From Clostridiaceae bacterium (GTDB lineage: Bacteria; Bacillota; Clostridia; Tissierellales; Sporanaerobacteraceae), in assembly GCA_019391515.1 (NCBI GenBank), contig JAHXQP010000011.1:1-64000 (forward strand): a stretch of 64,000 nt of DNA, written 5' to 3'. Of this stretch, positions 1,547-48,128 are shown in pieces (the first letter of the stretch is position 1; the number at the start of each line of letters is the position of its first letter). The translations under genes and the position numbers were made by a program. The notes beneath the pieces were generated by a model that saw nothing but the letters and a program-made list of their open reading frames with translations, made no database searches and was not told the origin of the DNA.

Positions 1547-2581
1547 TTGTCTTTATTAAAGCTGATAAGAGGAAAGTATGAAACTGTATCTATAGTAGGA
1601 ATGGCTAAAAACGTAGGAAAAACTATGACATTGAACCATCTTATAGGAGAAGCTATAGATGAATCGGTAGTAGTTGGAATTACGTCTATAGGTAGGGACG
1701 GGGAAAGTTTAGACCTAGTAACTGAAACGGAAAAACCAAAGATATTTGTTGAAGAAGGGACTTTGGTTGCAACTACTTCAGATATGCTTCTTTTAGGGGA
1801 TGCAAAAATAGAGATTATCAGCGTAACAGACTATAGAACCCCCCTTGGTTCTATAATCATTGGACGTGTAAAGGATAGCGGATATGTTCAAATAGGAGGT
1901 CCCCAAACTGTAAAAGAGACTAGAGAAGTTGCCAATATAATGTTAGAACTTGGGGCGGAATTTGTAATAATTGATGGAGCCCTAGATAGGATATCCTCAG
2001 CAGCCCCCTCTGTTTCGGAAGGAACTATCCTGTCTACAGGTGCTACATTGAGCAGAAATGTAAATAAAGTTATAGAAGAAACACTACATGTAGTGAACCT
2101 TTTAAAATTACCAGAAATTAAAGATGAAAAAGCAAGACCTTTAATTGAAGAGATAATTGGGTCTGGGAAAGTTTGCTTAATAAACGAAGACTATGAAATA
2201 CAACCATTAAAAGTGAGAACGGCTTTAAGTTGTGGTAATATCATTGGAGATCATATAAGTGAAGATACTAAATACGTAGTAGTATCTGGCTCTCTAGTGA
2301 AAAACACAATAGAAGACATGATTAAAACTACAAGAAAATATAAAGATGTAAAGATAATAATAAGTGACGGTACTAAAGTATTTATTAAACCAAAAGACTG
2401 GCTTAGATTTCAGCGATACGGTGTTAAAATAGAAGTATTGAACAGTATAGAGCTTGTAGCTATTACAACAAACCCTTATGCTCCTCAAGGATATTATTTT
2501 GATCCAAGGGAATTTTTAGAAAAAATGAAAGGCTACGTAAAAGAAGTACCAGTCATAGACGTAGTTCTTGGTGGTGAATAA
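1547..2581 (+). CDS. kamB: KamB, lysine 5,6-aminomutase partner/reactivase subunit
   Basis: This 344-residue protein has a P-loop near the N-terminus (GMAKNVGKT, residues 18-26), so it should bind a nucleotide. Its place between kamA and the MutS-like kamC is the standard arrangement in lysine fermenters, where KamB and KamC are annotated as the reactivating factor that exchanges damaged cobalamin on lysine 5,6-aminomutase. That role is taken from the family, not visible here. The start is TTG at 1547, preceded by a good SD (AGAAGGGG). The reading frame ends two bases before the kamC ATG, so the pair is translationally coupled. Confidence 0.88.
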   Translation: MSLLKLIRGKYETVSIVGMAKNVGKTMTLNHLIGEAIDESVVVGITSIGRDGESLDLVTETEKPKIFVEEGTLVATTSDMLLLGDAKIEIISVTDYRTPLGSIIIGRVKDSGYVQIGGPQTVKETREVANIMLELGAEFVIIDGALDRISSAAPSVSEGTILSTGATLSRNVNKVIEETLHVVNLLKLPEIKDEKARPLIEEIIGSGKVCLINEDYEIQPLKVRTALSCGNIIGDHISEDTKYVVVSGSLVKNTIEDMIKTTRKYKDVKIIISDGTKVFIKPKDWLRFQRYGVKIEVLNSIELVAITTNPYAPQGYYFDPREFLEKMKGYVKEVPVIDVVLGGE

Positions 2582-2582
2582 T

Positions 2583-4214
2583 ATGGAATTTATGAATGAA
2601 TTGACAAGAAAAAGTTTGGACTTTGATTATGTGTTGAGCAGGATAAAGACATATACCCCTTATGGCAAAGGATATAAGGAAAATATGAGACCTTATTTAC
2701 CTGGTGAAGAAGAAAGGCTAGAAGAGGAGCTACAAAGAATAGAACAATTTTTAAAATATGCAAAAGATCATGACTTTTCAAGAGAAATAAATGATATATT
2801 TGCACATGTAAAAGATTTAAGAACTTCAGTTAGAAGGACTATGGAAGGCTGTGTTCTATCTGAAGTAGAGTTATTTGAAATCAAAACTTTTCTTTTCTTA
2901 ATAAGGGATTTAGATAAAATTTTGAAAGAGTACGGAATGGATAATTGGAACGATATAGAAATAGAGCCTGTAGAAAAGTTAGAAAAATTATTAGATCCAG
3001 ATGATACAAAGATTGCTACGTTTTATATATATGATTCTTATTCTAAAAAACTTAAAAACATAAGAAAAGAAAAAAAAGATGTAGATAGAGAAATAAAAAA
3101 AATAAAAAAAGAAATAAAAGATAAGGTTAAAGAAGATTTAAATATGAGATTTCATCCAGATGGTTCTATAGTTGTCCCTAAAGAGAATCAAAGTGTGTTA
3201 GAAAAAATTGACACTAACCCCTATTTGACTTATGTTTCGGAAACCTATATGAACGTGAAGTTTACTATAAAATCAACGGAAGAAATTTCTGATTTAGAGA
3301 GAAAACTTTTTAATCTCAAAGAAAGAGAAGAAGAAGAAGAGTACAAGGTGCGTGAAGAAATAAGTAAGCAAATAGCTAGTTCTAGAAAAAAACTTTTTAG
3401 AAATATGGCTAGTATTGGTAAACTGGATTTTATCCTAGGAAAAGCTCAGTTTGCTATAGAGACTAATGCAGTTAAGCCAGAGATTGTAAAGGAACATTGT
3501 TTAATCATTAAAGAAGGCAGACATCCAAAAGTAGAAGAATTTTTAAATAAAAAGGAATTAGAATTCACTCCAATATCTATAGATTTACAAGAAGGTGCTG
3601 CTTGTATTACAGGAGCTAATATGGGTGGGAAAACTGTTAGTTTAAGACTAGTAGGACTTCTTGCAGCAATGGCCCAACATGGTTTATTTGTACCAGCAAA
3701 TAGTATGAAACTCGGACTAAGTAACTTTATATGTACATCTATAGGAGACATGCAATCTACAGATAAGGGTCTTAGTACCTTTGGTGGAGAAATAAAATTG
3801 GTCCAAGAAGCTATAGAGATAGCTCATAAAAAAGGGATTATCCTTATAGATGAACTGGCTCGTGGAACCAATCCACAAGAAGGATATGCTATATCCAAAG
3901 CACTTATAAAATTTTTAAAAGATAAAAATTCAATAACATTAGTAACAACACATTATGATAATATTGCAGATATGGAAGGAGTAGCCCATCTTCAAGTAGT
4001 AGGGCTTTCAGATATAGAGTTTGAAGAACTTAACGAAGAATTGAAGGATAAAGAGTTAGATAAAATGGATATAATAAATAGATATATGGATTATAGACTG
4101 GTAGAAGTAAAAAGTAAAAAAGAAGTTCCAAAGGATGCACTAAATATTGCAAGACTGATGGGACTAGATGAAAAAATTATATTTGAAGCAGAAAATATAT
4201 TAGAAGAAAAATAA
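2583..4214 (+). CDS. kamC: KamC, MutS-like ATPase, lysine 5,6-aminomutase reactivase
   Basis: The 543-residue protein is related to the MutS ATPase domain but lacks mismatch-recognition domains. It has a charged helical middle (Lys/Glu-rich, about residues 140-190 and 235-285), a Walker A of the MutS type (GANMGGKT, residues 344-351), a Walker B region (IILIDELARGTNP) and a threonine-histidine switch (VTTHYDN). I chose the ATG at 2583, which directly follows the kamB stop and has GGTGG upstream. An in-frame TTG five codons earlier overlaps kamB and is less likely. The family role is ATP-dependent reactivation of the B12 aminomutase encoded by the next two genes. Despite the homology it should not be annotated as a DNA repair gene. 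Confidence 0.88.
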   Translation: MEFMNELTRKSLDFDYVLSRIKTYTPYGKGYKENMRPYLPGEEERLEEELQRIEQFLKYAKDHDFSREINDIFAHVKDLRTSVRRTMEGCVLSEVELFEIKTFLFLIRDLDKILKEYGMDNWNDIEIEPVEKLEKLLDPDDTKIATFYIYDSYSKKLKNIRKEKKDVDREIKKIKKEIKDKVKEDLNMRFHPDGSIVVPKENQSVLEKIDTNPYLTYVSETYMNVKFTIKSTEEISDLERKLFNLKEREEEEEYKVREEISKQIASSRKKLFRNMASIGKLDFILGKAQFAIETNAVKPEIVKEHCLIIKEGRHPKVEEFLNKKELEFTPISIDLQEGAACITGANMGGKTVSLRLVGLLAAMAQHGLFVPANSMKLGLSNFICTSIGDMQSTDKGLSTFGGEIKLVQEAIEIAHKKGIILIDELARGTNPQEGYAISKALIKFLKDKNSITLVTTHYDNIADMEGVAHLQVVGLSDIEFEELNEELKDKELDKMDIINRYMDYRLVEVKSKKEVPKDALNIARLMGLDEKIIFEAENILEEK

Positions 4215-8928: not shown

Positions 8929-10032
8929 ATGTTAAAAAATTATAGGGCTCAGAATATAAAAGAATATGAAATGCTTCCTAATCCATATTGGAAGAGAATA
9001 AATGAAGAGATACTATTCCCAGAAAAGGTGTTGGATTACAATAAAGATATTATAGCTGAAAAGAATTTTGACAATGTAATGGATGTAGATGAAGAGCTAT
9101 GCTTTAAATATATAAAGTATTTAGAACTAGATAGAAACTATGGATTAGGAGAGAAGTTTTTAAGATTTTCAGAAGGTCTTTCCAATACTGGCCTTTTTAT
9201 AGATATTGAAGCTGGAGATAAAGGAAATAGGGCAAGAATAGATTTGAATATAGATTCAGAAAACCCTATTTTAGTAGATCATAACCTTATTATATGTAGA
9301 GAAAATAGCGAGTTAGATATATTTATAAATTATGAAGACGATAAAAAGACTAATGGCTTTCATAATGGATTTACAAAGATATATGTAGAAAAAGGGGCAA
9401 AATTAAATCTATACAAAATACAGAACTATTCTCAAGAAATTCAACATTTTGATTCTAGTGTAATATTTGTAGATGAAGATGCAGAAGTAAATATAATAGA
9501 TGTTCAACTAGGCTCTAAACTAAAAGGGGTTAATTATGATGTAGGGCTTAAAGGGGATAGGAGTTTTTGCGATATAAAGAACGTATATCTAGGAACAGAT
9601 AAGGATAAAATGGATTTTAATTATGATATTAACTTTTTAGGTAGAAATTCTAAAGGTTATGTAGAATCAGTAGGGGCCCTAACAGATAAGGCTTGGAAAG
9701 TATTTAGGAGTACAGAAAACTTTATAAAAGGTTGCAAAAAATCAGAAGGCAGTGCTAAAGAATATGTAATCTTATTGAATAAAGATGTAAAAAGCCATGC
9801 TATTCCAGCACTATTCTGCACAGAAGATGATGTAATAGGGGATCATGCAGCTAGTGCTGGTCAATTAGATGGAAATAAAATGTTTTATCTGATGAATAGG
9901 GGATTGGATAAAGAAGCAGCTAAAATCCTAGTAGTAGAATCATCCTTTGTCCCAATATTAGAAGGCTTACCTGAAGAGAATATGAAAAAAACCATAATAA
10001 ATCTTGTAAAGGATAGGTTAGGAGGGGATTAG
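8929..10032 (+). CDS. sufD: Fe-S cluster assembly protein SufD
   Basis: This 367-residue SufB paralogue shares the beta-helix and the C-terminal helix (MNRGLDKEAAKILVVESSF, corresponding to SRGMSEEEAKAMIVRGF in SufB). The likely heterodimer-face histidine lies in the segment GDHAASAGQLDG near residue 300. It is shorter and more divergent than SufB, as usual. It starts eleven bases after sufB with SD TAGGAGG, and its TAG stop directly abuts the GTG of sufS. Confidence 0.92.
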   Translation: MLKNYRAQNIKEYEMLPNPYWKRINEEILFPEKVLDYNKDIIAEKNFDNVMDVDEELCFKYIKYLELDRNYGLGEKFLRFSEGLSNTGLFIDIEAGDKGNRARIDLNIDSENPILVDHNLIICRENSELDIFINYEDDKKTNGFHNGFTKIYVEKGAKLNLYKIQNYSQEIQHFDSSVIFVDEDAEVNIIDVQLGSKLKGVNYDVGLKGDRSFCDIKNVYLGTDKDKMDFNYDINFLGRNSKGYVESVGALTDKAWKVFRSTENFIKGCKKSEGSAKEYVILLNKDVKSHAIPALFCTEDDVIGDHAASAGQLDGNKMFYLMNRGLDKEAAKILVVESSFVPILEGLPEENMKKTIINLVKDRLGGD

Positions 10033-11256
10033 GTGAAAGATTATAAAGCAGATTTTAAAATTCTCAAGCAAAAAATAAATGGTAGTACTATAGCCTATTT
10101 AGATAATGGGGCTACTACTCAAAAGCCTTTACAAGTAATAAAAGCTATAGAAGAATACAATAAACTTTATAATGGGAGTCCTCATAGAGGAGCCCATTAT
10201 TTGAGTGTAAATGCAACTAAAATATATGAAGATACAAGGGGAAAGGTAGCTAAGTTCATAGGAGCAAGGAATTCAAGAGAAATAATATTTACTAAAAATG
10301 CTACAGAAGCTCTAAATCTTATAGCTTATTCCTATGGCATGAATAATTTAAATGCTGAAGATGAGATTCTTTTAGCAATTACTAATCACCATAGCAATAT
10401 AGTTCCATGGCAGATAATAGCTAAAAAAACTGGTGCCAAAATCATATATTTAGATTGTGATAAAAATGGACAGATATATAAAGAAGATATAGATAAAAAG
10501 ATAAATAAAAACACAAAGATTATAAGCTTGTCCCATCTAACCAACGTATTTGGAATGGTTCATCCTATAGAATATATAATAGGAAAGGGAAGAGAATATT
10601 CAGCAATTACTATAATAGATGGAGCCCAAAGTGTGCCTCATATGAAAGTAGACATAGGAAGCTTGAAACCAGATTTTTTAGTATTTTCAGGTCATAAGAT
10701 GTTAGCTTCTATGGGTATAGGAGTACTTTATGGAAAGCTTGAAAAATTAGAAGAAATGGAACCTTTCCTATCAGGTGGAGATATGATTGAATATGTAGAC
10801 CTTTATGAGACAAGCTTTCATGAAGTTCCATATAAATTTGAAGCAGGGACTCAAAATGTAGAAGGGGTAGTATCTCTGTCAGCTGCTATAGACTATATTG
10901 AAAATATAGGAATTGAAAACATAGAGACCATCGAGGAAGAACTATTAAAATACGCATTGAAAAAATTAAAAGAAAATAAATATGTAGAAGTTTATGGAGG
11001 AGAAGATTTAAGCAATAGGAAGAGTCTATTATCCTTCAATGTTAAAGACGTTCATTCTCATGATGTAGCAACTATATTAGACAATAACAATGTAGCGATA
11101 AGGGCAGGTCACCACTGTGCTCAACCGTTTATTAAACATATGGGCCTTAATTCAACTTGTAGAGCTAGTTTCTATTTTTACAATACTTTTGAAGATATAG
11201 ATAGATTAGTAGATTCTCTTGGAGGAGTAAGGGGGGTTTTAGGATATGGATCTTAA
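10033..11256 (+). CDS. sufS: Cysteine desulfurase SufS
   Basis: The 407-residue PLP enzyme takes sulfur from cysteine, leaving alanine and an enzyme persulfide. Lys222 in SGHKML is the expected PLP Schiff-base lysine. Cys376 in NSTCRAS is the persulfide-forming cysteine of the group II (SufS) loop. Translation starts at GTG 10033, directly after the sufD stop, with SD GGAGGGG at 10021. The 3' end overlaps sufU by 11 bases, fitting the known SufS-SufU sulfur relay. Confidence 0.95.
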   Translation: MKDYKADFKILKQKINGSTIAYLDNGATTQKPLQVIKAIEEYNKLYNGSPHRGAHYLSVNATKIYEDTRGKVAKFIGARNSREIIFTKNATEALNLIAYSYGMNNLNAEDEILLAITNHHSNIVPWQIIAKKTGAKIIYLDCDKNGQIYKEDIDKKINKNTKIISLSHLTNVFGMVHPIEYIIGKGREYSAITIIDGAQSVPHMKVDIGSLKPDFLVFSGHKMLASMGIGVLYGKLEKLEEMEPFLSGGDMIEYVDLYETSFHEVPYKFEAGTQNVEGVVSLSAAIDYIENIGIENIETIEEELLKYALKKLKENKYVEVYGGEDLSNRKSLLSFNVKDVHSHDVATILDNNNVAIRAGHHCAQPFIKHMGLNSTCRASFYFYNTFEDIDRLVDSLGGVRGVLGYGS

Positions 11257-37782: not shown

Positions 37783-38727
37783 TTACTTATTTATAATTAA
37801 AGTTCCAGTTTTACCTTCTATTCCTTCACTTGCATTTTCAAGGGAAGTTATGAGAGATTTTCTACTTGGATTATTTTTTACGAATTTTATTGCAGCTTTA
37901 ATCTTAGGTAACATAGAGCCAGCAGCAAAATGGCCTTCTTCCATAAGTTTTTCTGCTTCAGCTACTGTTAAATTATCTAGTCCTCTTTGTTCCGGCTTAT
38001 TATAATTTATATAAACTTTTTCTACTGCCGTAAGTATTATTAGCATGTCTGCTTCTAATATTTCACCTAATTTCGCAGCAGCAAAATCCTTGTCTATAAC
38101 GGCTGGTATGCCTTCTATATGGTTATTTCCCTTATCTATAACGGGAATTCCTCCACCCCCAGCAGCAATTACAATATTACCTGCTTCTACAAGGGATTTA
38201 ATAGTAGAAGATTCAACTATATCTATAGGTTCTGGAGAAGGGACTACTCTTCTAAAGCCCCTGCCAGCATCTTCTCTCATAGTATATCCATTTATTTCTT
38301 CTAATCTTTTAGCTTCTTCTTCTGTGAAAAAGGAGCCTATAGGTTTTGTTGGATTTAAAAAGCCTGGATCATCTTTATCTACTAATACCTGTGTAACTAT
38401 TGAAGCTATACCCTTATCTATACCCCTACTTCTCATTTCTCCTCCTATAGCTTGTTGAAGATGGTATCCAATATAGCCTTGACTCATAGCTCCACATTCA
38501 GGAAAAGGCATTTCTCTATTTTCAGTTTCTTCATAAGTCGATACTATCTGACCTACTTGAGGACCATTTCCATGTACTATAGCTATTTCATGTCCAGCTG
38601 CTATCAGGTCTACAACAGATTTAGCTGTAAGCCTTGCCATTTCAAGTTGGGTTCTTGCAGAACTATCCTTTGTATCTTTTTGAAGTGCATTTCCTCCTAA
38701 AGCCAATATAATTCTCTTTTTCTCCAT
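37783..38727 (-). CDS. arcC: Carbamate kinase
   Basis: The 314-residue amino-acid-kinase-fold enzyme makes ATP from carbamoyl phosphate and ADP. Conserved features are LALGGNALQ at the N-terminus, VHGNGPQVGQ, the family segment RRVVPSPEP, VIAAGGGGIPV and VIDKDFAAAKL. No arcA, arcB or carbamoyltransferase gene lies nearby, so the source of carbamoyl phosphate (arginine, purine or agmatine breakdown) is not visible. ATG with SD AAAGGAAG. Confidence 0.95.
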   Translation of the reverse strand: MEKKRIILALGGNALQKDTKDSSARTQLEMARLTAKSVVDLIAAGHEIAIVHGNGPQVGQIVSTYEETENREMPFPECGAMSQGYIGYHLQQAIGGEMRSRGIDKGIASIVTQVLVDKDDPGFLNPTKPIGSFFTEEEAKRLEEINGYTMREDAGRGFRRVVPSPEPIDIVESSTIKSLVEAGNIVIAAGGGGIPVIDKGNNHIEGIPAVIDKDFAAAKLGEILEADMLIILTAVEKVYINYNKPEQRGLDNLTVAEAEKLMEEGHFAAGSMLPKIKAAIKFVKNNPSRKSLITSLENASEGIEGKTGTLIINK

Positions 38728-38826
38728 TATATACGCTTCCTTTCATATAATTTGCTTTTTATATTATAGCATAAAGTTTATAATTATATTTATAATACAA
38801 AGACATTTTAAAAGGAGGTTTTTTAG

Positions 38827-39468
38827 ATGAAAGTTTTAGTAACAGGTTTTGATCCTTTTGATGGAGAAAAAGTGAATCCTGCTTACGAAGCGGTTAAAAG
38901 ATTGGATGACAATATAAATGGAGCGGAAATAATTAAACTAGAAATTCCTACAGTATTTCAAAAGTCAATAGAAGTCCTTGATAAGACTATAGATAGAGAA
39001 AAACCAGATATTGTACTGTGTATAGGTCAAGCTGGTGGAAGATATGATATAACTGTAGAAAGAGTAGCTATAAATATAAATGACGCTAGAATTGAAGACA
39101 ATGAAGGTAATCAACCTATAGATAAACCTATATTTGAAGATGGAGATGCAGCCTATTTTTCAAATCTTCCTATAAAAGCTATGGTTAAAAATATAAGGAA
39201 GGGAAATATACCTGGAAGTATATCCAACTCAGCGGGTACTTTTGTATGCAACCATATCATGTATGGTCTCCTCTACCTAATAGATAAAAAGTATCCAGAT
39301 ATAAGAGGTGGGTTCATCCATGTACCTTTCTTGCCAGAACAAGTAATTGATAAAAACAATACACCAAGTATGAATCTAAAAGATATAACAAAGGCCTTAA
39401 CTTTAGCCATAGAAGCAGCAATAGATAATAAAAAAGATATAAAAACAGTAGAAGGAAAAATTTATTAA
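38827..39468 (+). CDS. pcp: Pyrrolidone-carboxylate peptidase
   Basis: The 213-residue cytoplasmic cysteine peptidase removes N-terminal pyroglutamate from peptides. The catalytic triad of family C15 is in place: Glu78 (ERVAINI), Cys141 ([10 protein letters not shown]) and His165 ([10 protein letters not shown]). Length matches the family. SD AAAAGGAGG precedes the ATG. It is divergent from arcC and probably single. It fits a peptide-scavenging lifestyle with the exported proteases. Confidence 0.95.
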
Positions 39469-39586
39469 TAAGTAAAAAACTTAACATTATTATAAAATAA
39501 TGAAAAAACTATCTTGAGTTAACACAATGCTTCCAAAATAGCCAGTCTAATTAATTAAAAAATAGATTATGAAAAAAGATTTCAAA

Positions 39587-39637
39587 AAATTAAGATGCAT
39601 GGTTTTTTTAGAATATGGAAACCATGCATCTTAATTT
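39587..39637. terminator. Long hairpin after pcp
   Basis: A 19-bp perfect stem (AAATTAAGATGCATGGTTT and complement) with a 13-base loop, A-rich before and T-rich after. Probably the pcp terminator. Confidence 0.7.
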
Positions 39638-39706
39638 ACATAATATTTTAATTAAGGTATCTGTTTACTTTGATATAGGTAGTTTATTTCGAGACTCTTT
39701 TATTAT

Positions 39707-39752
39707 GAGTAAACTTGCTTATAAATAATATGCTTTATAAGCAAGTTTACTC
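39707..39752 (-). terminator. Hairpin at the end of the sugar operon
   Basis: GAGTAAACTTGCTTATA and TATAAGCAAGTTTACTC pair over 17 bp, directly after the hydroxyacid dehydrogenase stop. The T tract is poor. Confidence 0.65.
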
Positions 39753-39758
39753 CATTGA

Positions 39759-40772
39759 TTAAGAAAACATTTTTTTATGACTAATTATATTATTTAATAT
39801 ATTTGCCATCATTTTTGGACTATTAGAGAAAGCATCTTTTGTAGAGCCAGCAATATGAGGCGTTATTGTTATATTATCTAGTTTTAGTATTTCATCATCT
39901 TCGGGGATTGGCTCATTATCAAATACATCTATTGCTGCTCCAAATATCCTATGTTCTTTTAAAGCTTCTACTAGTGCATCTTGATTTACCAATCCAGAAC
40001 GAGCTGTATTTATCAAAACAGCATTTTTTTTCATTAGAGACAACTCTCTTTCATCAATTAGGTGATGAGTATCTTTAGTATATCTTGCGTGGATGGTTAC
40101 TATATCGGAATTTCTTAAAAGGGTGTCTAAGTCTACTATTTCCACACCTTCAAAATTTCCTTTAAAGAAAGGATCATAAGCTATGATGTTGCTGCCAAAT
40201 GCTTTTAAATATCCTGCTACAAGTTGTCCAATGTGACCAAATCCTACTAGGCCTACAGTTTTTCCATTTAATTCAGGTATATAACTGTTGTTTGGAAAGT
40301 CTTTCCTCCATTCATTATTTTTTAAAGCATAGTGTGATCTGGCTATATTTCTTACTTCACTTAATATCATACCCATAGTAAATTCAGCTACAGCTCTGGC
40401 ATTTCTTCCAGGAGTGTTTAAAACTTTTATATTGTTTTGTTTTGCATAGTCTTTGTCGATATTTTCAGTTCCACCCCTTAAAACTCCTATAAGTTTTAAA
40501 TTTTTAGCCTGTGACATTAATTTTTTAGATACTGGTGCAAATTGTACTATTATTATATCAAATTTATCTAAATCATTTAACAGTTTATCAGGTAACTCTA
40601 CAGCTTCTGGACCATTCTGTTCTATGAGTAGATTATCCCTTTGAAGGTCTTCTTGATTTTCATGATACCAATTTCTTATTTCAATATTAACTCCAATTTT
40701 TTCTAAATCTTTAAGTCCATTATACATAGTTTTTTCATCGATGAAATTGTCAGCAATTGCTAATAAATTCAT
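39759..40772 (-). CDS. D-isomer-specific 2-hydroxyacid dehydrogenase
   Basis: The 337-residue NAD-dependent dehydrogenase has the central Rossmann motif GLVGFGHIGQLVAGYL (about 170-190) and the catalytic set Arg (HARYTKDT), Glu in the DVFDNEPIPEDDEILKL segment and His (ITPHIAGST). I chose ATG 40772, preceded by GAGAGGTG; an in-frame GTG at 40787 overlaps the aldolase stop. It is the last gene of the operon and probably reduces or oxidises the short-chain product of the aldolase step. The exact substrate is unknown. Confidence 0.85.
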   Translation of the reverse strand: MNLLAIADNFIDEKTMYNGLKDLEKIGVNIEIRNWYHENQEDLQRDNLLIEQNGPEAVELPDKLLNDLDKFDIIIVQFAPVSKKLMSQAKNLKLIGVLRGGTENIDKDYAKQNNIKVLNTPGRNARAVAEFTMGMILSEVRNIARSHYALKNNEWRKDFPNNSYIPELNGKTVGLVGFGHIGQLVAGYLKAFGSNIIAYDPFFKGNFEGVEIVDLDTLLRNSDIVTIHARYTKDTHHLIDERELSLMKKNAVLINTARSGLVNQDALVEALKEHRIFGAAIDVFDNEPIPEDDEILKLDNITITPHIAGSTKDAFSNSPKMMANILNNIISHKKMFS

Positions 40773-40786
40773 TTTATCACCTCTCA

Positions 40787-41641
40787 CTAGTCTGCCTTAT
40801 TTTCTGAAAATGTCATATTTATTTTGTTTATTATAGTTTTTCTTAATTCCTCTTTCATTGGTTCAAACATTTCATCTGGTAGAGGATCTATTCTTTTTTG
40901 ATATTTAGCTGAGGATTTTAATCCTTTAAACATAGCTATTCTCAAATCAGCATATAGATTTACTTTTGCAATACCATTTTTTATAGCTTCCTGTACTTGA
41001 TCAATAGGGGTTCCAGAACCACCATGTAGAACTAATGGTACAGGGCTTATATCATTTATTTCTTTTAATCTCTCTATATTTAAATTAGGTTCTGAAACAT
41101 AAACACCATGAGATGTACCTATTGAAACAGCTAGAGCATCAACTCTTGTTCTATTTACAAATTCTAAAACTTGATTACATTCTGTTAGTTTAGTATCTCC
41201 AGTGTAGGAACCATCTAGTTCGTTACCACCTACATATCCTAATTCAGCTTCTACAGTTATATTTTTAGGATGAGCTATTTCTACAACTTTTTTAGTATTA
41301 GCTATATTTTCTTCAAAGGATAACATAGAACCATCATACATTACAGAAGTGAATCCATGTTCTATAGCTCTTTCGATTAACTCTATATCAGTTGCATGGT
41401 CTAAATGCAGTACAATAGGTATATTGTACTTTTCAGCAACTCCTTTAACCATAGATGTTATATAATCCATGCCTCTTCCATTTAAATCATGTTCCAATGC
41501 CATTAGAACAACAGGAGATTTTTTTTCTTCACAAGTATCTAATATTGTTCTGATAAGAATATCTTCTGTACAATCAAAAGCGGGTACTCCATATTTTCCT
41601 TTTCTTGCTTTTACTAAAACTTCATTTAAGTTAACTAACAT
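40787..41641 (-). CDS. Class II ketose-phosphate aldolase
   Basis: The 284-residue enzyme is of the fructose/tagatose-bisphosphate aldolase class II family. The zinc and substrate motifs are visible: HLDHATDIE, the YDGSMLSFEEN segment, EAELGYVGG and VLHGGSGTP, with KVNLYADLR for phosphate binding. Such enzymes cleave a ketose 1-phosphate or 1,6-bisphosphate to dihydroxyacetone phosphate and an aldehyde. Within this operon a ketose 1-phosphate made by the FGGY kinase is the most likely substrate. SD AAGGAGG. Confidence 0.85.
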   Translation of the reverse strand: MLVNLNEVLVKARKGKYGVPAFDCTEDILIRTILDTCEEKKSPVVLMALEHDLNGRGMDYITSMVKGVAEKYNIPIVLHLDHATDIELIERAIEHGFTSVMYDGSMLSFEENIANTKKVVEIAHPKNITVEAELGYVGGNELDGSYTGDTKLTECNQVLEFVNRTRVDALAVSIGTSHGVYVSEPNLNIERLKEINDISPVPLVLHGGSGTPIDQVQEAIKNGIAKVNLYADLRIAMFKGLKSSAKYQKRIDPLPDEMFEPMKEELRKTIINKINMTFSENKAD

Positions 41642-41653
41642 TTTTTTTCCTCC

Positions 41654-42412
41654 TTATCTCATCAACATTCCGCCAGTAGCATCTATTGTAGCTCCAGTTA
41701 TATAAGAAGAAGGTTCAGATACCAAGAATAATGCTATATTTGCTATATCTTTTGGAGTTGCAACTCTTCCAACAGGTATCCTATTCAAATAATAATCTTC
41801 TTTTTCTTCTAAAGCTTTCTTTGTCATGTCTGTTTCAACAATACCTAGAGCTATAGCGTTAATATTTATATTATGTTTAGCCATTTCTCTAGCCATAGAT
41901 ATAGTTAGAGAAACTACACCAGCTTTACTTGCGGCATAATGAGCATGACCAGTTGTAGAGCCATTAAAAGCTGCTTGAGATGTTACATTTAATATTTTTC
42001 CTGGTTTATTTTTCTCAATATTTTTTCTTACAAAAGCTTGACTAGTTAGAAAAACAGAAGTTAAATTTACATCAATAGTTTTGTTCCATTCTTCTAGTGA
42101 AATGTCTTCAACCCAGTTTTTAGGCCATATACCTGCATTGTTGACAAGAATATCTACATTTCCAAAAGCTTTTTCACCTTCATCTATTAATCTTTTACAA
42201 TCTTCTGGATTGCCTAAATCAGCTTTTATAGCTATAGCCTTTCCACCCAATTTTTCTATCTCTTCTTTCAGTTCTAGCGCAGCTTTACTACTAGAGTTGT
42301 AATTGATAACAACATTAACACCTTCTTTTGCTAATGCTAAACATATTCCTCTGCCCACACCTCTAGATCCTCCAGTGACAACAGCACATTTTCCACTTAT
42401 TCTTAAATCCAT
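41654..42412 (-). CDS. Short-chain dehydrogenase/reductase (sugar or polyol type)
   Basis: The 252-residue classical SDR has the cofactor motif TGGSRGVGRGI, structural NNAG and the catalytic Ser-Tyr-Lys set with HYAASKAG, and ends with the tetramer segment YITGATIDATGGML. In the operon it is placed to oxidise a polyol to a ketose (or reduce the reverse) before phosphorylation. SD GAGGTGA; twelve bases separate it from the aldolase. Confidence 0.85.
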   Translation of the reverse strand: MDLRISGKCAVVTGGSRGVGRGICLALAKEGVNVVINYNSSSKAALELKEEIEKLGGKAIAIKADLGNPEDCKRLIDEGEKAFGNVDILVNNAGIWPKNWVEDISLEEWNKTIDVNLTSVFLTSQAFVRKNIEKNKPGKILNVTSQAAFNGSTTGHAHYAASKAGVVSLTISMAREMAKHNININAIALGIVETDMTKKALEEKEDYYLNRIPVGRVATPKDIANIALFLVSEPSSYITGATIDATGGMLMR

Positions 42413-42428
42413 CTTAAATCACCTCAAT

Positions 42429-43934
42429 TTATTCTTGTAATTCGTCCCATAAAGGGCTTAATATATTTATAGATTTTTTATATAAATTATATTTTTTGTC
42501 ATATATATCTTTATTATCCTTATTTGGATAACAAGTATAAGCTACATTTACCATAGAATTAGATGCTGATTCATAGGACTCAAAGTTTTTAGTAGCTATT
42601 CCAGCACATATAGCAGCTCCAAGAGCACCTAATTCAGTGCTTGTAGTGACTTCTATAGGGGTTTGAAGTACATCAGCAAATATTTGAACCCAAACTTTAG
42701 ATTTTGCAGCTCCACCAGCTATTCTTATAGCTTTGGGTTTTTCCCTATATTTTAATAACTTATCAACATGAGCCCTATGACAGAAAGCTACACCTTCATA
42801 TATAGCTCTCAATAAATGAGCTTTTGTATGCCATCCACTTAAACCAATGAAAGAAGCTTTAGCATTGGCATCTACATTTGTTCCATATAGGAAAGGTAAA
42901 AATATAATATTACTTTCTCCAGGAGACACACTATTAACTAAGTTATTTGTCTCTTCATAAATATTTGTGCTATCAGATTTTCCATCTTTCATAAATTCAG
43001 TTACAAACCATTCTAAATTGCTAGCCGATGTAGGACTGGCTTCTGTAGTTAACCAATAACCTTTCATACAATATATAGAAGTCATGAATAGATCTTTTGA
43101 TATAACTGGTTCTTTGCTAATATATTCATTTATACTCCAAGTACCAGCTACCATACAAAGCTTTTCTTCTTCTGTAAGTCCAGTAGCTATAGCAGAGGCA
43201 TCTATATCAAAGAGACCACCGGCTACAGGAGTACCTTCTACAAGTCCAGTTTCTTTAGCGGCTTCTTTAGTTACATATCCACATATTTCTGAAGAATATT
43301 TTAAAGGTGCTAGTTTATCTATAACTTCTTCTATGCCAAATTCTTTCAATAAATCTTTGTCATATTTAACATCTCTAACATTCATTAAATTGGTTCCAGA
43401 CATATCGGTTATTTCAGCATAGGCTTTATTAGTTAATCTATACCTTATATAATCTTTACACATGAAGATCCATTTTGTTTTTTCCAATACTTCTGGATTA
43501 TTGTCTTTAAACCAAGCAAGTAAAGGAACCGGTTGACCAGCCCATATGGATTGCATAGTTTTAAGAAGTACCTTTTCAAATGTAGTATCACTATACCATT
43601 TTTCTACGTAATTCTTTGCCCTAGTGTCTGTAGATATAATTCCATTATAAGCAGGATTTCCATTATGATCTACCAGATACATTCCATTTCCATGACCAGT
43701 TGTTGCAATTCCTACTATATTTTTAGGATCTACTTTACCTATGCTTATTACGTCTTTTATAGATTTTACATTAGCTTGCCACATTTCTTCCATATTTCTC
43801 TCAGTAAATCCAGGCTTAGGCATCATGGTTTCTGTTTTATATCCAGATACTGCTATTTCATTTCCATGCAAATCGTATAATGCTGCTTTAGACATAGTGC
43901 CACCATTGTCAATACCAATTAAATATTTTTCCAT
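42429..43934 (-). CDS. FGGY carbohydrate kinase, L-xylulokinase-like
   Basis: The 501-residue kinase has the two FGGY actin-like domains: the N-terminal phosphate loop (GIDNGGTMSKAALYD), the segment KPGFTERNMEEMW, and the C-terminal FLPFLYGTN and GGAAKSKVW motifs. It resembles E. coli L-xylulose kinase LyxK throughout, including ASPTSASNLEWF. The substrate is probably a ketopentose or ketohexose, phosphorylated for the aldolase. SD GGAGGGA. The presence of a kinase suggests that the sugar enters unphosphorylated although the transporter is of PTS type. Confidence 0.88.
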   Translation of the reverse strand: MEKYLIGIDNGGTMSKAALYDLHGNEIAVSGYKTETMMPKPGFTERNMEEMWQANVKSIKDVISIGKVDPKNIVGIATTGHGNGMYLVDHNGNPAYNGIISTDTRAKNYVEKWYSDTTFEKVLLKTMQSIWAGQPVPLLAWFKDNNPEVLEKTKWIFMCKDYIRYRLTNKAYAEITDMSGTNLMNVRDVKYDKDLLKEFGIEEVIDKLAPLKYSSEICGYVTKEAAKETGLVEGTPVAGGLFDIDASAIATGLTEEEKLCMVAGTWSINEYISKEPVISKDLFMTSIYCMKGYWLTTEASPTSASNLEWFVTEFMKDGKSDSTNIYEETNNLVNSVSPGESNIIFLPFLYGTNVDANAKASFIGLSGWHTKAHLLRAIYEGVAFCHRAHVDKLLKYREKPKAIRIAGGAAKSKVWVQIFADVLQTPIEVTTSTELGALGAAICAGIATKNFESYESASNSMVNVAYTCYPNKDNKDIYDKKYNLYKKSINILSPLWDELQE

Positions 43935-43961
43935 ACCTATCCCTCCTAAAATTAGTATTAT

Positions 43962-45224
43962 CTATTTAAAAAATGTTGAAATTTTTATTAAAATCCAACC
44001 AAGAGGAGTAGTTGCGCCTCCAACTAAATTAGCCATTTCTGTATTAGGACCAATACCCTCAGGTAATGTCACGTTGGCTAATTCTGCAGCCTTTGTATAG
44101 TAAGGAGCTACACTAGAACCCGCATATAATACTAAAGTAATAATAACTAAACCAGTTATAAATATTCTAACCATATTTTTTTTGCAATATGGAGATACCA
44201 TAGAAATTAAGAATACTATTGAAGCCAAGTCAACAAAAGGCAAAACCTTATTTCCTGGGAGTATAACTGCTAATAGTAACGCAGCTGGTATCATTAATAA
44301 TCCTGTAGCTAAAACTGCTGGATCCCCAACAAGTAAAGCAGTATCAAGTCCAATATAAAATTCTCTATCTGGGAATTTTTTCTTCAAGGTTTTTTCTGCG
44401 GCATCTCTAACAGTCACTAATCCTTCTACTAATACATTAATCATTGCTGGAAGAAGTACCATAACTGCAGCAACTTTTACTGCTAATCCTAAGATATCTG
44501 TCAAATTCCATCCTGCTAGTATTCCAAGAATCGCTCCAAGAATTGTTCCAAGAGTTAAAGGTTCTCCCATAACTCCAAATTTTTCAGTTATAACGTCTGG
44601 ATTAGCATCGACTTTATTTAATCCAGGGATTTTCTCAATAATCCAGTTTACTCCTATTCCAATAGGGACATACATAGCTGAAGTAGCATGGGCAAAGGAA
44701 ACACCTTTCAAATCATAAGCTTTTTGAACTGTAGGAGCTGTTTTATCAGCTATTATTAAAGCGATTAAGAAATGAATAAGTGCTCCAATAGATGAAATAG
44801 CTATACTTCCTGTAACTGCATACATAACTCCCCCAGTAAGGAGAAAATGCCAATAATTAAATATATCTATATTTACCGTTTTTGTTAGATTTAAAACTAA
44901 TAGAATTAAATTCAAAAATAGACCTCCAAATACTACAAAAGGTACTATTGGAGAACCCCAACCTATAGTAGCTGCTACAGGCCATCCAGCATCTACTACA
45001 GTTAAATTTAAGCCAAATCTTTCTACCATAGCTTCAGCAGCAGGCCCTAAACTATTTAATAAAAGACCAATTACAAGGTTAATGCCTTCAAAGCCAATTC
45101 CTACTAGCATTCCAGCTTTAAAAGCTTTTCCTATCTTTACACCAAAAATCAGTGCTAGTATGAAAAATATTATTGGCATCATTACAGATGGTCCCATATT
45201 GATAATTCCATTAATGATACTCAT
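43962..45224 (-). CDS. PTS IIC component, galactitol (GatC) family, without IIA/IIB
   Basis: The 420-residue membrane protein (about 10-12 helices) belongs to the galactitol IIC family, with NMGPSVMMPIIFF at the N-terminus and MLVGIGFEGINLVIGLL. No IIA or IIB gene lies in this operon or elsewhere in the window. Either the partners are elsewhere or the IIC acts as a phosphorylation-independent carrier, which the FGGY kinase next to it would make sensible. It is the first structural gene after the antiterminator gene and a strong terminator. Confidence 0.85.
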   Translation of the reverse strand: MSIINGIINMGPSVMMPIIFFILALIFGVKIGKAFKAGMLVGIGFEGINLVIGLLLNSLGPAAEAMVERFGLNLTVVDAGWPVAATIGWGSPIVPFVVFGGLFLNLILLVLNLTKTVNIDIFNYWHFLLTGGVMYAVTGSIAISSIGALIHFLIALIIADKTAPTVQKAYDLKGVSFAHATSAMYVPIGIGVNWIIEKIPGLNKVDANPDVITEKFGVMGEPLTLGTILGAILGILAGWNLTDILGLAVKVAAVMVLLPAMINVLVEGLVTVRDAAEKTLKKKFPDREFYIGLDTALLVGDPAVLATGLLMIPAALLLAVILPGNKVLPFVDLASIVFLISMVSPYCKKNMVRIFITGLVIITLVLYAGSSVAPYYTKAAELANVTLPEGIGPNTEMANLVGGATTPLGWILIKISTFFK

Positions 45225-45261
45225 AAAAATTCCCCCTTATTATTTTTTTATTAATACAAAA

Positions 45262-45308
45262 AAGTCCTGCTAAGGAGAATTTTGAAAAATTCTCCTTAAG
45301 CAGGACTT
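45262..45308 (-). terminator. Leader terminator, probable target of the GlpP-like antiterminator
   Basis: A 22-bp stem with one bulge (AAGTCCTGCT...AGCAGGACTT) and T6 on the minus strand stands between the antiterminator gene and the IIC gene. All five catabolic genes lie downstream and no promoter is obvious between, so read-through must be regulated here. Confidence 0.85.
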
Positions 45309-45337
45309 CTTCTATTCACTATCCTACAAGTTCTATT

Positions 45338-45907
45338 TTATTGTAAATTCCAAAGGTCTTTAGTACTAGTCGTTACCCCATTAAATCCTAGTTTCTTAAA
45401 TTTTTCTATGCTGTTTTTATTATCTACAAAGCCTCCGGCTAAAATAGGTATATTCTTATTTTTTGCTATTTCATCAGCAAATTTAGGAGCTAGTGGAGAA
45501 GGTAGAAGTTCTACAGCATCTGCCTGTGAATTCTTAAAAGATTTCAAACTCGAATCAACGGCTTTTGAATCCATTAGGAAAAATCTTTGAATCGTGAATA
45601 AGCCTACAGATTTACACATATTTATTGTAATCATATTTGAAGTTAGTATTCCATCGACTTTAAATAAATCTTTTAATAATTTAACTCCCATTCTATCAGG
45701 GGAGAAACCTCCTACTAAATCTACATTTACAAGAACTTTCTTATTTTGTCTTTGACATAATTTTACTAAACTTGTCAAATTACCTATATGAACTTCTGAT
45801 AATAGTATAATAGGTAATGTACTTTTTAAAGCATAATCCAAGTCTTTTAAGACTCTAACGGATGGTATAATAGTAAAGGTATTAAAAATGTTTTTCAAGC
45901 TAATCAC
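45338..45907 (-). CDS. GlpP-family transcription antiterminator
   Basis: The 189-residue protein matches GlpP: a TIM-barrel-like fold with VNVDLVGGFSPDRMGV (KMFVHVDLIHG in Bacillus GlpP), IQRFFLMDSKAVDSSLK and AVELLPSPLA. Bacillus GlpP binds mRNA leaders in the presence of glycerol 3-phosphate and prevents termination. Here no glp gene is near; the gene heads a sugar operon and is followed by a strong terminator, so that operon is the probable target. The start is GTG 45907; a TTG three codons later with GGTGA upstream is an alternative. Confidence 0.85.
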   Translation of the reverse strand: MISLKNIFNTFTIIPSVRVLKDLDYALKSTLPIILLSEVHIGNLTSLVKLCQRQNKKVLVNVDLVGGFSPDRMGVKLLKDLFKVDGILTSNMITINMCKSVGLFTIQRFFLMDSKAVDSSLKSFKNSQADAVELLPSPLAPKFADEIAKNKNIPILAGGFVDNKNSIEKFKKLGFNGVTTSTKDLWNLQ

Positions 45908-45913
45908 CTAAAC

Positions 45914-45927
45914 TGAAAACGTTTTGA
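45914..45927 (-). promoter_or_regulatory. cre-like site of the sugar operon
   Basis: TGAAAACGTTTTGA departs from the CcpA cre consensus at one conserved position and sits at the expected transcription start of the minus-strand operon, a classical position for catabolite repression. Confidence 0.55.
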
Positions 45928-45932
45928 TTTTA

Positions 45933-45960
45933 ATTGTAGCATAAATATATTTAATGTCAA
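45933..45960 (-). promoter_or_regulatory. Promoter of the GlpP-like gene and sugar operon
   Basis: On the minus strand TTGACA (45960-45955), a 16-bp spacer and TACAAT (45938-45933). Confidence 0.75.
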
Positions 45961-46053
45961 TATGGAATTTTTTCTAAATATAGCATATAAAAAATGAATG
46001 AATTGAAAATACTGCACTTCGAGCTTCAAATTTTTAAAAATAAAATTCTTATA

Positions 46054-46082
46054 TTGACAAAAGATATGGATAATATTACTAT
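46054..46082 (+). promoter_or_regulatory. Promoter of psuK-psuG
   Basis: TTGACA (46054-46059), a 17-bp spacer and TACTAT (46077-46082), about 50 bases before the psuK ATG. It excludes an in-frame ATG further upstream as the start. Confidence 0.7.
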
Positions 46083-46131
46083 AGACATAAGCAGTTGTTT
46101 ATACAATAAGCAAATATTAAGGAGCTATTTT

Positions 46132-47223
46132 ATGACTAAAAGAGAAAAAGAAATATTAGAGCTTATATCTAAAAATCCAATGATATCTCAAAAAGAAGTA
46201 GCAGATATTTTAGGTATTAGCCGTTCTTCTGTAGCAGTACATATTACAAATCTAATGAAAAAAGGCTATATTCTTGGGAAAGGCTATATTGTAAAGACAA
46301 AGCCTTATGCAACTGTTATAGGAGGGGCTAATGTAGATATAATAGGTTTTCCTTATAATAAAATTATAAGGAAAGATTCAAACCCAGGGAAAACTAGTAT
46401 TTCACTAGGTGGAGTAGGTAGAAACATAGGTGAAAATTTAGCTAGATTAGGAATAGATACAAGGCTTATAACGGTCCTTGGCAGGGATGATTATGGAAAG
46501 CTTATTATGGAAGAAGGCTTAAAGGTAGGGTTAAATATGTCTGATTCATTAGTAATTTCAGATGAACAGACTTCTACTTATCTAGGTATATTAGATGAAA
46601 GGGGAGATATGGCCTTGGCCCTTTCTTCTATGGACATATTTGAAAAGATGACTATATCTTTTATAGAAGAAAAAAGAGGTTTAATAGAAAATTCCATACT
46701 TTGTATAGTAGATACCAATATAAATATAAAGACATTGGAATACATGGTTACTAATTTTAAAGTGGATTTTTTTCTAGATACTGTATCTACATCAAAGGCT
46801 AAAAAGGTAAAAGATATAGTAGGGTATTTTCATACTATAAAGCCAAATAAGCTAGAGGCAGAAATATTATCAGGTATTGAAATAAATAATGAGGAAGATT
46901 TGAAAAGAGCTTCTTATTATTTTATCGATAAAGGTGTAAAAAGAGTATTTATCTCTCTAGGAGGGAAGGGAATATATTATTTCGATGGAAAGGTAGAAAG
47001 GCATTTTGCTTCACCAAAAGTAAAGGTAATAAATGCAACTGGAGCAGGGGATGCCTTCCTTGCAGGATTAGCTTATTCATATTTTAATGATTTTTCTAGA
47101 GACAAAACCTTAGCCTTTGCAACAGGTGCCTCTATCATTACCTTAGAAAATGAAAATACTATAAACCCTAATATTTCACCTGAAAAAATTGAAAAGAAAA
47201 TAGAGGAGATGGGAATATGTTAG
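46132..47223 (+). CDS. psuK: Pseudouridine kinase with N-terminal winged helix
   Basis: The 363-residue protein begins with a winged-helix DNA-binding domain (about 1-60, SQKEVADILGISRSSVAVHI) followed by a PfkB-type sugar kinase (GGANVDIIGFP, catalytic NATGAGDAF). This fusion and the overlap with psuG define pseudouridine kinase of the YeiC/YeiI type. It phosphorylates pseudouridine at the 5' position, and the helix domain may make it autoregulatory. I chose ATG 46132 because AAGGAGC precedes it and the promoter lies just upstream. Its last seven bases overlap psuG. Confidence 0.88.
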   Translation: MTKREKEILELISKNPMISQKEVADILGISRSSVAVHITNLMKKGYILGKGYIVKTKPYATVIGGANVDIIGFPYNKIIRKDSNPGKTSISLGGVGRNIGENLARLGIDTRLITVLGRDDYGKLIMEEGLKVGLNMSDSLVISDEQTSTYLGILDERGDMALALSSMDIFEKMTISFIEEKRGLIENSILCIVDTNINIKTLEYMVTNFKVDFFLDTVSTSKAKKVKDIVGYFHTIKPNKLEAEILSGIEINNEEDLKRASYYFIDKGVKRVFISLGGKGIYYFDGKVERHFASPKVKVINATGAGDAFLAGLAYSYFNDFSRDKTLAFATGASIITLENENTINPNISPEKIEKKIEEMGIC

Positions 47224-48128
47224 AAAAATATATGGAAATCAAAGAAGAAGTAAAAAAGGCTCTAGATGAAAATAAAGCTGTAGTAGCCCTTGAGTCTACT
47301 ATAATAGCTCATGGTATGCCTTATCCTAAAAATGTAGAAACAGCTTTGGAAGCAGAAAGGACAATCAGAGATAGAGGAGCTATACCAGCCACTATTGCTA
47401 TACTTGATGGTAAGATCAAAGTAGGACTTTCAAAAGAAGAGATAGAATATCTAGGAAAGGCAGAAAATGTATCTAAAGTTAGTAGAAGGGATCTACCTTT
47501 CATTGCAGCAAAAGGATTAAATGGTGCTACTACTGTAGCCAGCACCATGATAGTAGCTAAAATGGCTGGAATAAAGGTATTTGTAACTGGAGGAATAGGT
47601 GGAGTTCACAGAGGGGCTGAGGAATCTTTCGATATTTCAGCAGATCTTCAAGAACTTGCTAAGACCAATGTAGCAGTAGTATGTGCAGGAGCTAAATCTA
47701 TTTTAGATATAGGTCTTACATTAGAATATCTTGAAACTTTTGGAGTGCCAGTTGTAGGATTTAAGACAGACGAATTTCCAGCTTTCTTTACAAGAAAAAG
47801 TGGCTTTGGAGTAGATTATAACGTAGATAGTGAAGAAGAACTGGCAAAGGCTATAAAGACTAAATGGGATCTAGGTCTTGATGGTGGAATAGTAGTTGCT
47901 AATCCAATTCCAGAAGAATATGAAATGGATGCAGATATAATAAACAGAGCTATTTCAGAGGCATTAAATGAAGCAGAAAAAAAAGAAATTAAAGGTAAGA
48001 AAGTAACCCCATTTTTACTTGAAAATGTAAAAGAAAAAACGGGGGGAAACAGTTTAGAATCCAATATTAGATTGGTATACAATAATGCATTAGTTGGAGC
48101 AAATTTAGCTATAGAATTGGAAAAATAA
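47217..48128 (+). CDS. psuG: Pseudouridine-5'-phosphate glycosidase
   Basis: The 303-residue enzyme splits pseudouridine 5'-phosphate into uracil and ribose 5-phosphate. Conserved features include ALESTIIAHGMPYPKN at the N-terminus, GATTVASTMIVA, FVTGGIGGVHRGAE, CAGAKSILDIGLTLEYLET and the C-terminal SLESNIRLVYNNA. Length matches the family. It overlaps psuK by seven bases and is followed by a terminator. The pair recycles pseudouridine from RNA turnover, in line with the nucleoside uptake operon upstream. Confidence 0.96.
   Translation: MLEKYMEIKEEVKKALDENKAVVALESTIIAHGMPYPKNVETALEAERTIRDRGAIPATIAILDGKIKVGLSKEEIEYLGKAENVSKVSRRDLPFIAAKGLNGATTVASTMIVAKMAGIKVFVTGGIGGVHRGAEESFDISADLQELAKTNVAVVCAGAKSILDIGLTLEYLETFGVPVVGFKTDEFPAFFTRKSGFGVDYNVDSEEELAKAIKTKWDLGLDGGIVVANPIPEEYEMDADIINRAISEALNEAEKKEIKGKKVTPFLLENVKEKTGGNSLESNIRLVYNNALVGANLAIELEK

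Follow-up and report, generated by a model that had tools for sequence, protein, structure and literature searches.

The closest described system is the glycerol antiterminator GlpP of Bacillus subtilis with its glpD, glpFK and glpT leaders. GlpP bound to glycerol 3-phosphate is described as lifting leader terminators, and the likenesses to the locus treated here are the PF04309 fold, a binding site before an intrinsic terminator and the use of antitermination (PMC9604022). Glycerol regulation is the known role of GlpP, whose RNA code has been little defined. We analysed a GlpP-like gene and its surroundings on the minus strand of a 64,000-nt stretch from a Clostridiaceae bacterium (contig JAHXQP010000011.1; the whole stretch is called the window below). 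Unlike the B. subtilis system, the one in the window would control other genes, has a leader element unlike the glycerol leaders that we read, has lost a Lys or Arg at position 91 of the regulator, and carries the regulator gene on the same transcript, immediately before the terminator. With moderate confidence, we read the locus as a self-contained sugar or sugar-alcohol operon under a GlpP-type antiterminator of a separate branch, for which the product of the operon's own kinase is the most likely inducer. That GlpP-type antitermination with its own RNA site operates here, as a real, conserved and coherent unit, is the most likely interpretation. The operon consists of the following genes:

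45338..45898, minus strand: glpP-like gene (PF04309, 1.2e-50) with a probable TTG start, in an open reading frame (ORF) from GTG 45907; the predicted structure matches 3kts and 1vkf
43962..45224, minus strand: GatC-like EIIC permease (PF03611, 3.8e-82, nearly the whole profile covered), the only EIIC-GAT found in the genome
42429..43934, minus strand: FGGY carbohydrate kinase (PF00370 and PF02782; best NCBIfam model XylB, 280 of 380 bits)
41654..42412, minus strand: short-chain dehydrogenase (SDR; PF13561, 1.5e-59)
40787..41641, minus strand: class II ketose-bisphosphate-type aldolase (PF01116, 4.5e-90; TIGR00167 over its cut-off)
39759..40787, minus strand: D-2-hydroxyacid dehydrogenase family protein (PF02826, 1.4e-60)

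The PF04309 match in ORF 45338-45907 covers the full profile and reaches 171.7 bits against a curated cut-off of 27. The genes follow one another in the order glpP-like, EIIC-GAT, FGGY, SDR, F_bP_aldolase and 2-Hacid_dh with gaps of 113, 27, 16, 12 and −1 bases, and translation of the first one probably starts at TTG 45898, which is preceded by AGGTGA, as in three close orthologues (L035, L036 and L037). The first-pass annotation had described a GlpP-family gene with a promoter and a terminator ahead of five catabolic genes, and every part it named is present. It had also proposed a comparative search for GlpP beside GatC and kinase genes, which returned the identical six-gene order together with the leader terminator in four other species (L035, L036, L037 and L041). 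Judged from gene order, the regulator gene, its leader terminator and the five catabolic genes together make up a conserved unit.

Relatives of the window protein are sparsely distributed: a scan of the order found one at 70% identity or more in 4 of 199 genomes, and the scans of the class and the phylum, each with an E limit of 1e-33, gave 7 of 391 and 6 of 398 genomes; all three counts include the window genome. Two exact peptide patterns of the branch, searched in 84,980 species with one genome each, led to five loci, belonging to Anaerosalibacter massiliensis, Tissierella simiarum, Clostridium simiarum, a Virgibacillus species and the actinobacterium Ancrocorticia populi. All six genes are present in the same order in C. 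simiarum (L041). The Virgibacillus locus (L042) has no class II aldolase, and its glpP-like gene is preceded by one for a DeoC/LacD-type aldolase, while that of Ancrocorticia (L043) contains, by reading, a similar aldolase-like ORF upstream, followed by glpP-like, kinase, hydroxyacid dehydrogenase and SDR genes, with no gatC in the locus. From this gene content, unrelated aldolases are apparently exchanged within one pathway. The DeoC/LacD-type genes lie at 9047-9907 in L042 and, by reading, at 9138-9995 in L043; in both loci, which lack a class II aldolase, they precede the glpP-like gene. A further variant occurs in five genomes of one family (L068-L072), which combine the glpP-like gene with a kinase 61–62% identical to that of the window, an SDR, two larger ORFs, a small ORF and a distant aldolase; in L069 the larger and small ORFs encode GlpA-like, Pyr_redox_2 and DUF1667 proteins, and the ORF layout places a GlpA-like dehydrogenase in the operon of its four family-mates as well. 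The GlpA-like protein of L069 is 41% identical to the glpD-like protein of the window genome. Locus L062 (G649) has a different kinase and an aldolase 64% identical to that of the window.

In a tree of 47 sequences, the window protein belongs to a separate GlpP branch of 15 members, set off by one split with a support of 100/99; several forks inside the branch are weaker, and L063, L043 and L062 are long. L067 and L074 were counted among the 15 members in the tree and in the residue comparison; three further sequences, L064, L065 and L066, were similar enough to pass the cut-off but did not group with the branch. All 36 GlpPs aligned for comparison have Lys or Arg at position 91; a glycerol-gene neighbourhood was seen for part of them, and few come from Bacilli. 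In all 15 branch members the residue is Asn, Asp or Ser. The solved GlpPs carry Arg (3kts) and Lys (1vkf) at this position in the alignments; taking Lys or Arg behind strand 4 as a trait of glycerol GlpPs is an observation of this analysis, not a published criterion. Positions 15 and 16 are Pro-Ser in all 15 members versus mostly Ala-Ala in the others, and there are further branch-specific changes at positions 37, 39 and 40, while barrel residues such as Arg108, Glu133, Gly159 and Ser181 are common to both groups. The structure model (mean predicted local distance difference test score, pLDDT, of 93) has the GlpP fold, with template modelling (TM) scores of 0.89 to 3kts and 0.85 to 1vkf, and places residue 91 directly behind strand 4. 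TIM barrels generally bind their ligands on the face where this residue sits. The ligand has probably changed in this branch.

The control elements of the operon are the following:

45933..45960, minus strand: sigma-70-type promoter TTGACA-16-TACAAT (11 of 12 matches), whose boxes and spacing recur in L035, L036 and L037
45914..45928, minus strand: cre-like site close to the start of transcription (14 of 15 consensus positions matched)
45335..45342, minus strand: AAYAAAAT box, found in 13 of 14 leaders versus 0.62 expected; here it overlaps the stop codon of glpP
45321..45327, minus strand: GUAGGAU, 5' strand of a proposed antiterminator hairpin, weakly suggested by pairing counts and refolding
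45300..45306, minus strand: GUCCUGC, 3' strand of the same proposed hairpin, within the 5' arm of the terminator, likewise weakly suggested by pairing counts and refolding
45261..45309, minus strand: leader terminator hairpin followed by a T run (22 pairs, −30.5 kcal/mol; z −5.4)

The promoter that had been predicted ahead of the glpP-like gene gave the top score among 48 promoter-like sites of the sigma-70 type in 38500-46800 (mean of shuffles 41.6), and TTGACA-16-TANAAT with 11 of 12 matches also precedes glpP in each of the three close orthologues. The predicted cre-like site on the start point held up as well, and its score against the consensus was reached by 3 of 300 shuffles of a 141-base region and 9 of 300 shuffles of a longer region. 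With the same consensus, 13 upstream regions of branch members contain cre-like sites with 14 of 15 matches in eight cases and 12 or 13 in five; those of L069, L070 and L071 are on the opposite strand.

The 22-bp terminator described between the regulator and the catabolic genes was confirmed by folding, although it is absent from the output of a simple terminator scan. The 116-nt leader folds 5.4 standard deviations below its shuffles, none of 200 shuffles being equally low, and the terminator adjoins the gene that it would control, which is a mark of GlpP-family systems. Leaders were readable in 13 of the 15 branch members, giving 14 in total with the two of Virgibacillus; L043 was counted despite an imperfect box, and the leader of L072 was found by reading, not by the terminator script. 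The AAYAAAAT box lies at most 55 bases from the terminator arm in 13 of these leaders, and the longer form AACAAAATA occurs in eight of them, versus 0.62 and 0.06, respectively, expected from dinucleotide shuffles. Between the window and L035, L036 and L037, the identity of the element is 0.95, 0.86 and 0.67, that of glpP is 0.85, 0.73 and 0.69 and that of the remaining leader is 0.60, 0.59 and 0.50, so the element is better conserved than the gene in two of three orthologues and better than the rest of the leader in all three. In these alignments, the RNA directly ahead of the terminator is conserved as a binding site would be. In addition, the 5' arm of the terminator was compared with the stretch that follows the box, and 87% of the cells can pair, versus 50% or less for slid versions. 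This weakly points to an antiterminator pairing upstream of the terminator, which we offer as a proposal only.

The Virgibacillus locus has one leader ahead of the aldolase gene and another between the glpP-like gene and gatC (8995-9090 and 10541-10628). The AACAAAATAG box is identical in the two, and their loop sequences are similar.

We propose that transcription would start upstream of the glpP-like gene and, without inducer, stop at the terminator behind it, yielding a short regulator mRNA. The inducer would be an intermediate carrying a phosphate, and the FGGY kinase of the cassette most likely produces it. The inducer-bound protein would then bind the leader RNA with the AAYAAAAT box and stabilise a hairpin that uses the 5' arm of the terminator, and polymerase could read through into the five catabolic genes, from that of the permease to that of the dehydrogenase. 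Repression of the promoter by CcpA is probable while better sugars are available.

Several results weigh against this reading. Two of the 15 branch members yield no leader: in L067 (G502) the genes downstream of glpP are gone, and in L074 (G764) no gap next to glpP is large enough to hold a leader. The box pattern was picked after the leaders had been read, the leader rows are related, and in the four closest members the box shares bases with the stop codon of glpP. Covariation of the proposed antiterminator was matched by 31 of 500 shuffles, refolding gave a p under 0.05 in no single leader, and the combined p of 0.02 was obtained over related, non-independent leaders; both leaders of L042 and those of L069, L070 and L071 refolded no better than shuffles. 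A search with a leader model, described below, recovered held-out leaders only at E 0.34 to 2.1 and missed those of L073 and L043 in 207,007 bases. The tree program warned that L065 and the cassette branch may have been pulled towards each other as long branches, and the cassette-type label is partly circular because it rests on neighbours and was assigned once the window protein had been used for similarity searches. We lowered our confidence slightly because five leaders are without hairpin support and the second-best site in the genome carries the box.

A different inducer would be expected if the family name and fold were taken at face value. The first-pass annotation had suggested that the operon is induced by its own end product via glycerol 3-phosphate, and the class II aldolase would indeed yield dihydroxyacetone phosphate; the GlpA-like protein in the L069 operon, with those placed by ORF layout in its four family-mates, and the four barrel residues common to both groups also fit induction by either compound or by glycerol. 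Against this stand the loss of Lys or Arg at position 91 in all 15 members, the changes at positions 15, 16, 37, 39 and 40, and the presence of two ordinary GlpPs with another leader element in the same genome. Three proteins of the 2.84-Mb assembly exceed the PF04309 cut-off: that of the window and two others, which are encoded next to glpF and next to a glpD-like gene and are 36% and 29% identical to it. The statement that no glp genes are present is therefore right for the window and wrong for the genome, and the glpF, glpK and glpD genes that mark glycerol GlpPs are absent from the window operon and are found next to the other two. Glycerol kinase, whose product induces GlpP in the glycerol system, is an FGGY kinase. 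Because the cassette kinase is of the same class, we regard its product as the first inducer candidate, which by analogy may be at least as good as glycerol 3-phosphate. We consider induction by glycerol 3-phosphate or dihydroxyacetone phosphate unlikely; of the earlier interpretation, the conserved unit of antiterminator, leader and catabolic genes stands, and end-product induction via glycerol 3-phosphate is not supported in the form proposed, in view of the diverged branch, the altered position 91, the different leader element and the adjoining FGGY kinase.

The hairpin could also be a mere 3' terminator of the glpP-like gene, with the protein acting elsewhere and the operon having its own promoter; terminators behind genes are common, and the promoter scan was limited to sigma-70-type sites. 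A strong promoter between 45337 and 45225 had been named in advance as speaking against antitermination, and the minus strand shows one weak promoter-like site there (9 of 12 matches, 45347-45318). Since, moreover, the noncoding element is conserved, one Virgibacillus leader precedes the aldolase gene instead of following glpP, and in L072 a promoter-like sequence was read ahead of box and terminator, we hold this explanation to be very improbable. We give just as little credence to the ordinary glycerol GlpPs of the same cell acting on the window leader as part of the glycerol regulon: glycerol leaders are similarly laid out, with an A-rich stretch, a purine-rich stretch and a terminator, but those that we read carry a GAGA...GAGAG stretch and none of five has the AAYAAAAT box within 55 nt, and the cassette leader model did not list them. 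We rejected an ordinary glycerol GlpP lying by chance beside an unrelated operon in view of the conserved unit and the separate branch, and a known riboswitch or Rfam leader because neither the window nor the leaders of nine loci matched Rfam at its gathering threshold.

The leader model was built from nine leaders, with those of Virgibacillus and L072 held out, and gave 12 matches in the 207,007 bases searched; the L072 leader ranked first and the Virgibacillus leaders second and fifth (E 0.34, 1.2 and 2.1). In the own genome, where 150 of 1702 first-look candidates were scored, the window site reached 59 bits and the next place 18.8 bits (E 1.25). The latter starts with AATAAAAT and consists of the stop codon of a PTS (phosphotransferase system) gene that contains EIIB and of a terminator behind it that also serves a convergent gene; we took it as chance because of this arrangement, and rejected a wider regulon in this genome, the window site alone being strong. 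In eight other genomes, all five matches with E under 0.01 were training leaders, and the leaders of G451 (L072) and G957 (L043) were missed.

The substrate was approached via the permease and the kinase. The permease resembles the galactitol PTS component GatC over almost the entire PF03611 profile, but differs from that system in scoring 433 of 542 bits for TIGR00827, in lacking GatA and GatB in the operon and in being followed by a kinase gene. E. coli GatC mutants are reported to move xylose or glucose (PMC12089948). No EIIA or EIIB partner is present in the operon, and none of the seven EIIB and four EIIA places in the genome adjoins EIIC-GAT; the places covered by scans belong with other EIICs or PRD regulators, and one free EIIB of 97 aa, which by reading stands beside HPr and EI genes, may be a partner of the permease. 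This gene content suggests that the EIIC may transport without phosphorylation, the kinase acting afterwards. We confine this reading to the window genome because A. massiliensis, T. simiarum and Virgibacillus have further EIIC-GAT genes (six, two and four in all). The kinase has both FGGY domains, like LsrK, xylulokinase and glycerol kinase, but stays under every named NCBIfam cut-off, so the name LyxK given to it earlier could not be upheld. Its solved relatives are glycerol, autoinducer-2 and xylulose kinases; neither family models nor solved structures gave a sugar assignment, and the open-access literature yielded nothing useful on the substrate.

More tentatively, and at slightly less than even chances, the branch may be a second, old one of GlpP, in which ligand and RNA site were exchanged and which serves as the dedicated antiterminator of a ketose or polyol pathway, its protein-leader pairs being orthogonal to the glycerol GlpPs present in the same cell. 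The pathway would comprise the FGGY kinase, the SDR, an exchangeable class II or DeoC/LacD-type aldolase and often the hydroxyacid dehydrogenase, and extend over several Bacillota families and one actinobacterium; the EIIC would be a plain permease in the gatC-bearing cassettes. Among the open-access full-text papers listed by our searches, none dealt with a non-glycerol GlpP branch. Two branches and two leader types in one cell would allow protein-RNA specificity to be mapped by comparison and may offer an orthogonal antiterminator pair. Genomes with the window-type branch are likely annotated as having additional glycerol regulators, and the cassette points to a sugar pathway without assignment to date.

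Some loci of the comparison are decayed or rearranged. L067 (1580-2390) has a glpP-like gene standing nearly alone, with about 60 dehydrogenase residues behind it and a AACAAAATA box after the stop codon, and the branch sequence L055 (G502) likewise has only a dehydrogenase remnant. A decayed cassette was found in place in the genus-mate G013 (L038, 6222-6638), consisting of glpP fragments and 33 gatC residues; arcC/pcp and psuK/psuG flank it just as they flank the cassette of the window. In L036 (G012, 1807-3604), the glpP-like gene is immediately preceded by what we read as an IS607-type recombinase-like ORF and a TnpB-like ORF. The Rfam scan of the nine loci returned two thiamine pyrophosphate (TPP) matches only, which are tandem riboswitches on the same strand in C. 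simiarum (L041, 3664-3955). Next to the operon, at 45994-48128, the window contains two divergent genes, one for an Indigoidine_A (PsuG-type) protein and one for a PfkB kinase that carries a winged helix-turn-helix at its N-terminus; the helix-turn-helix match puts the probable start of the kinase near 46132, so that the ORF as listed would begin too early.

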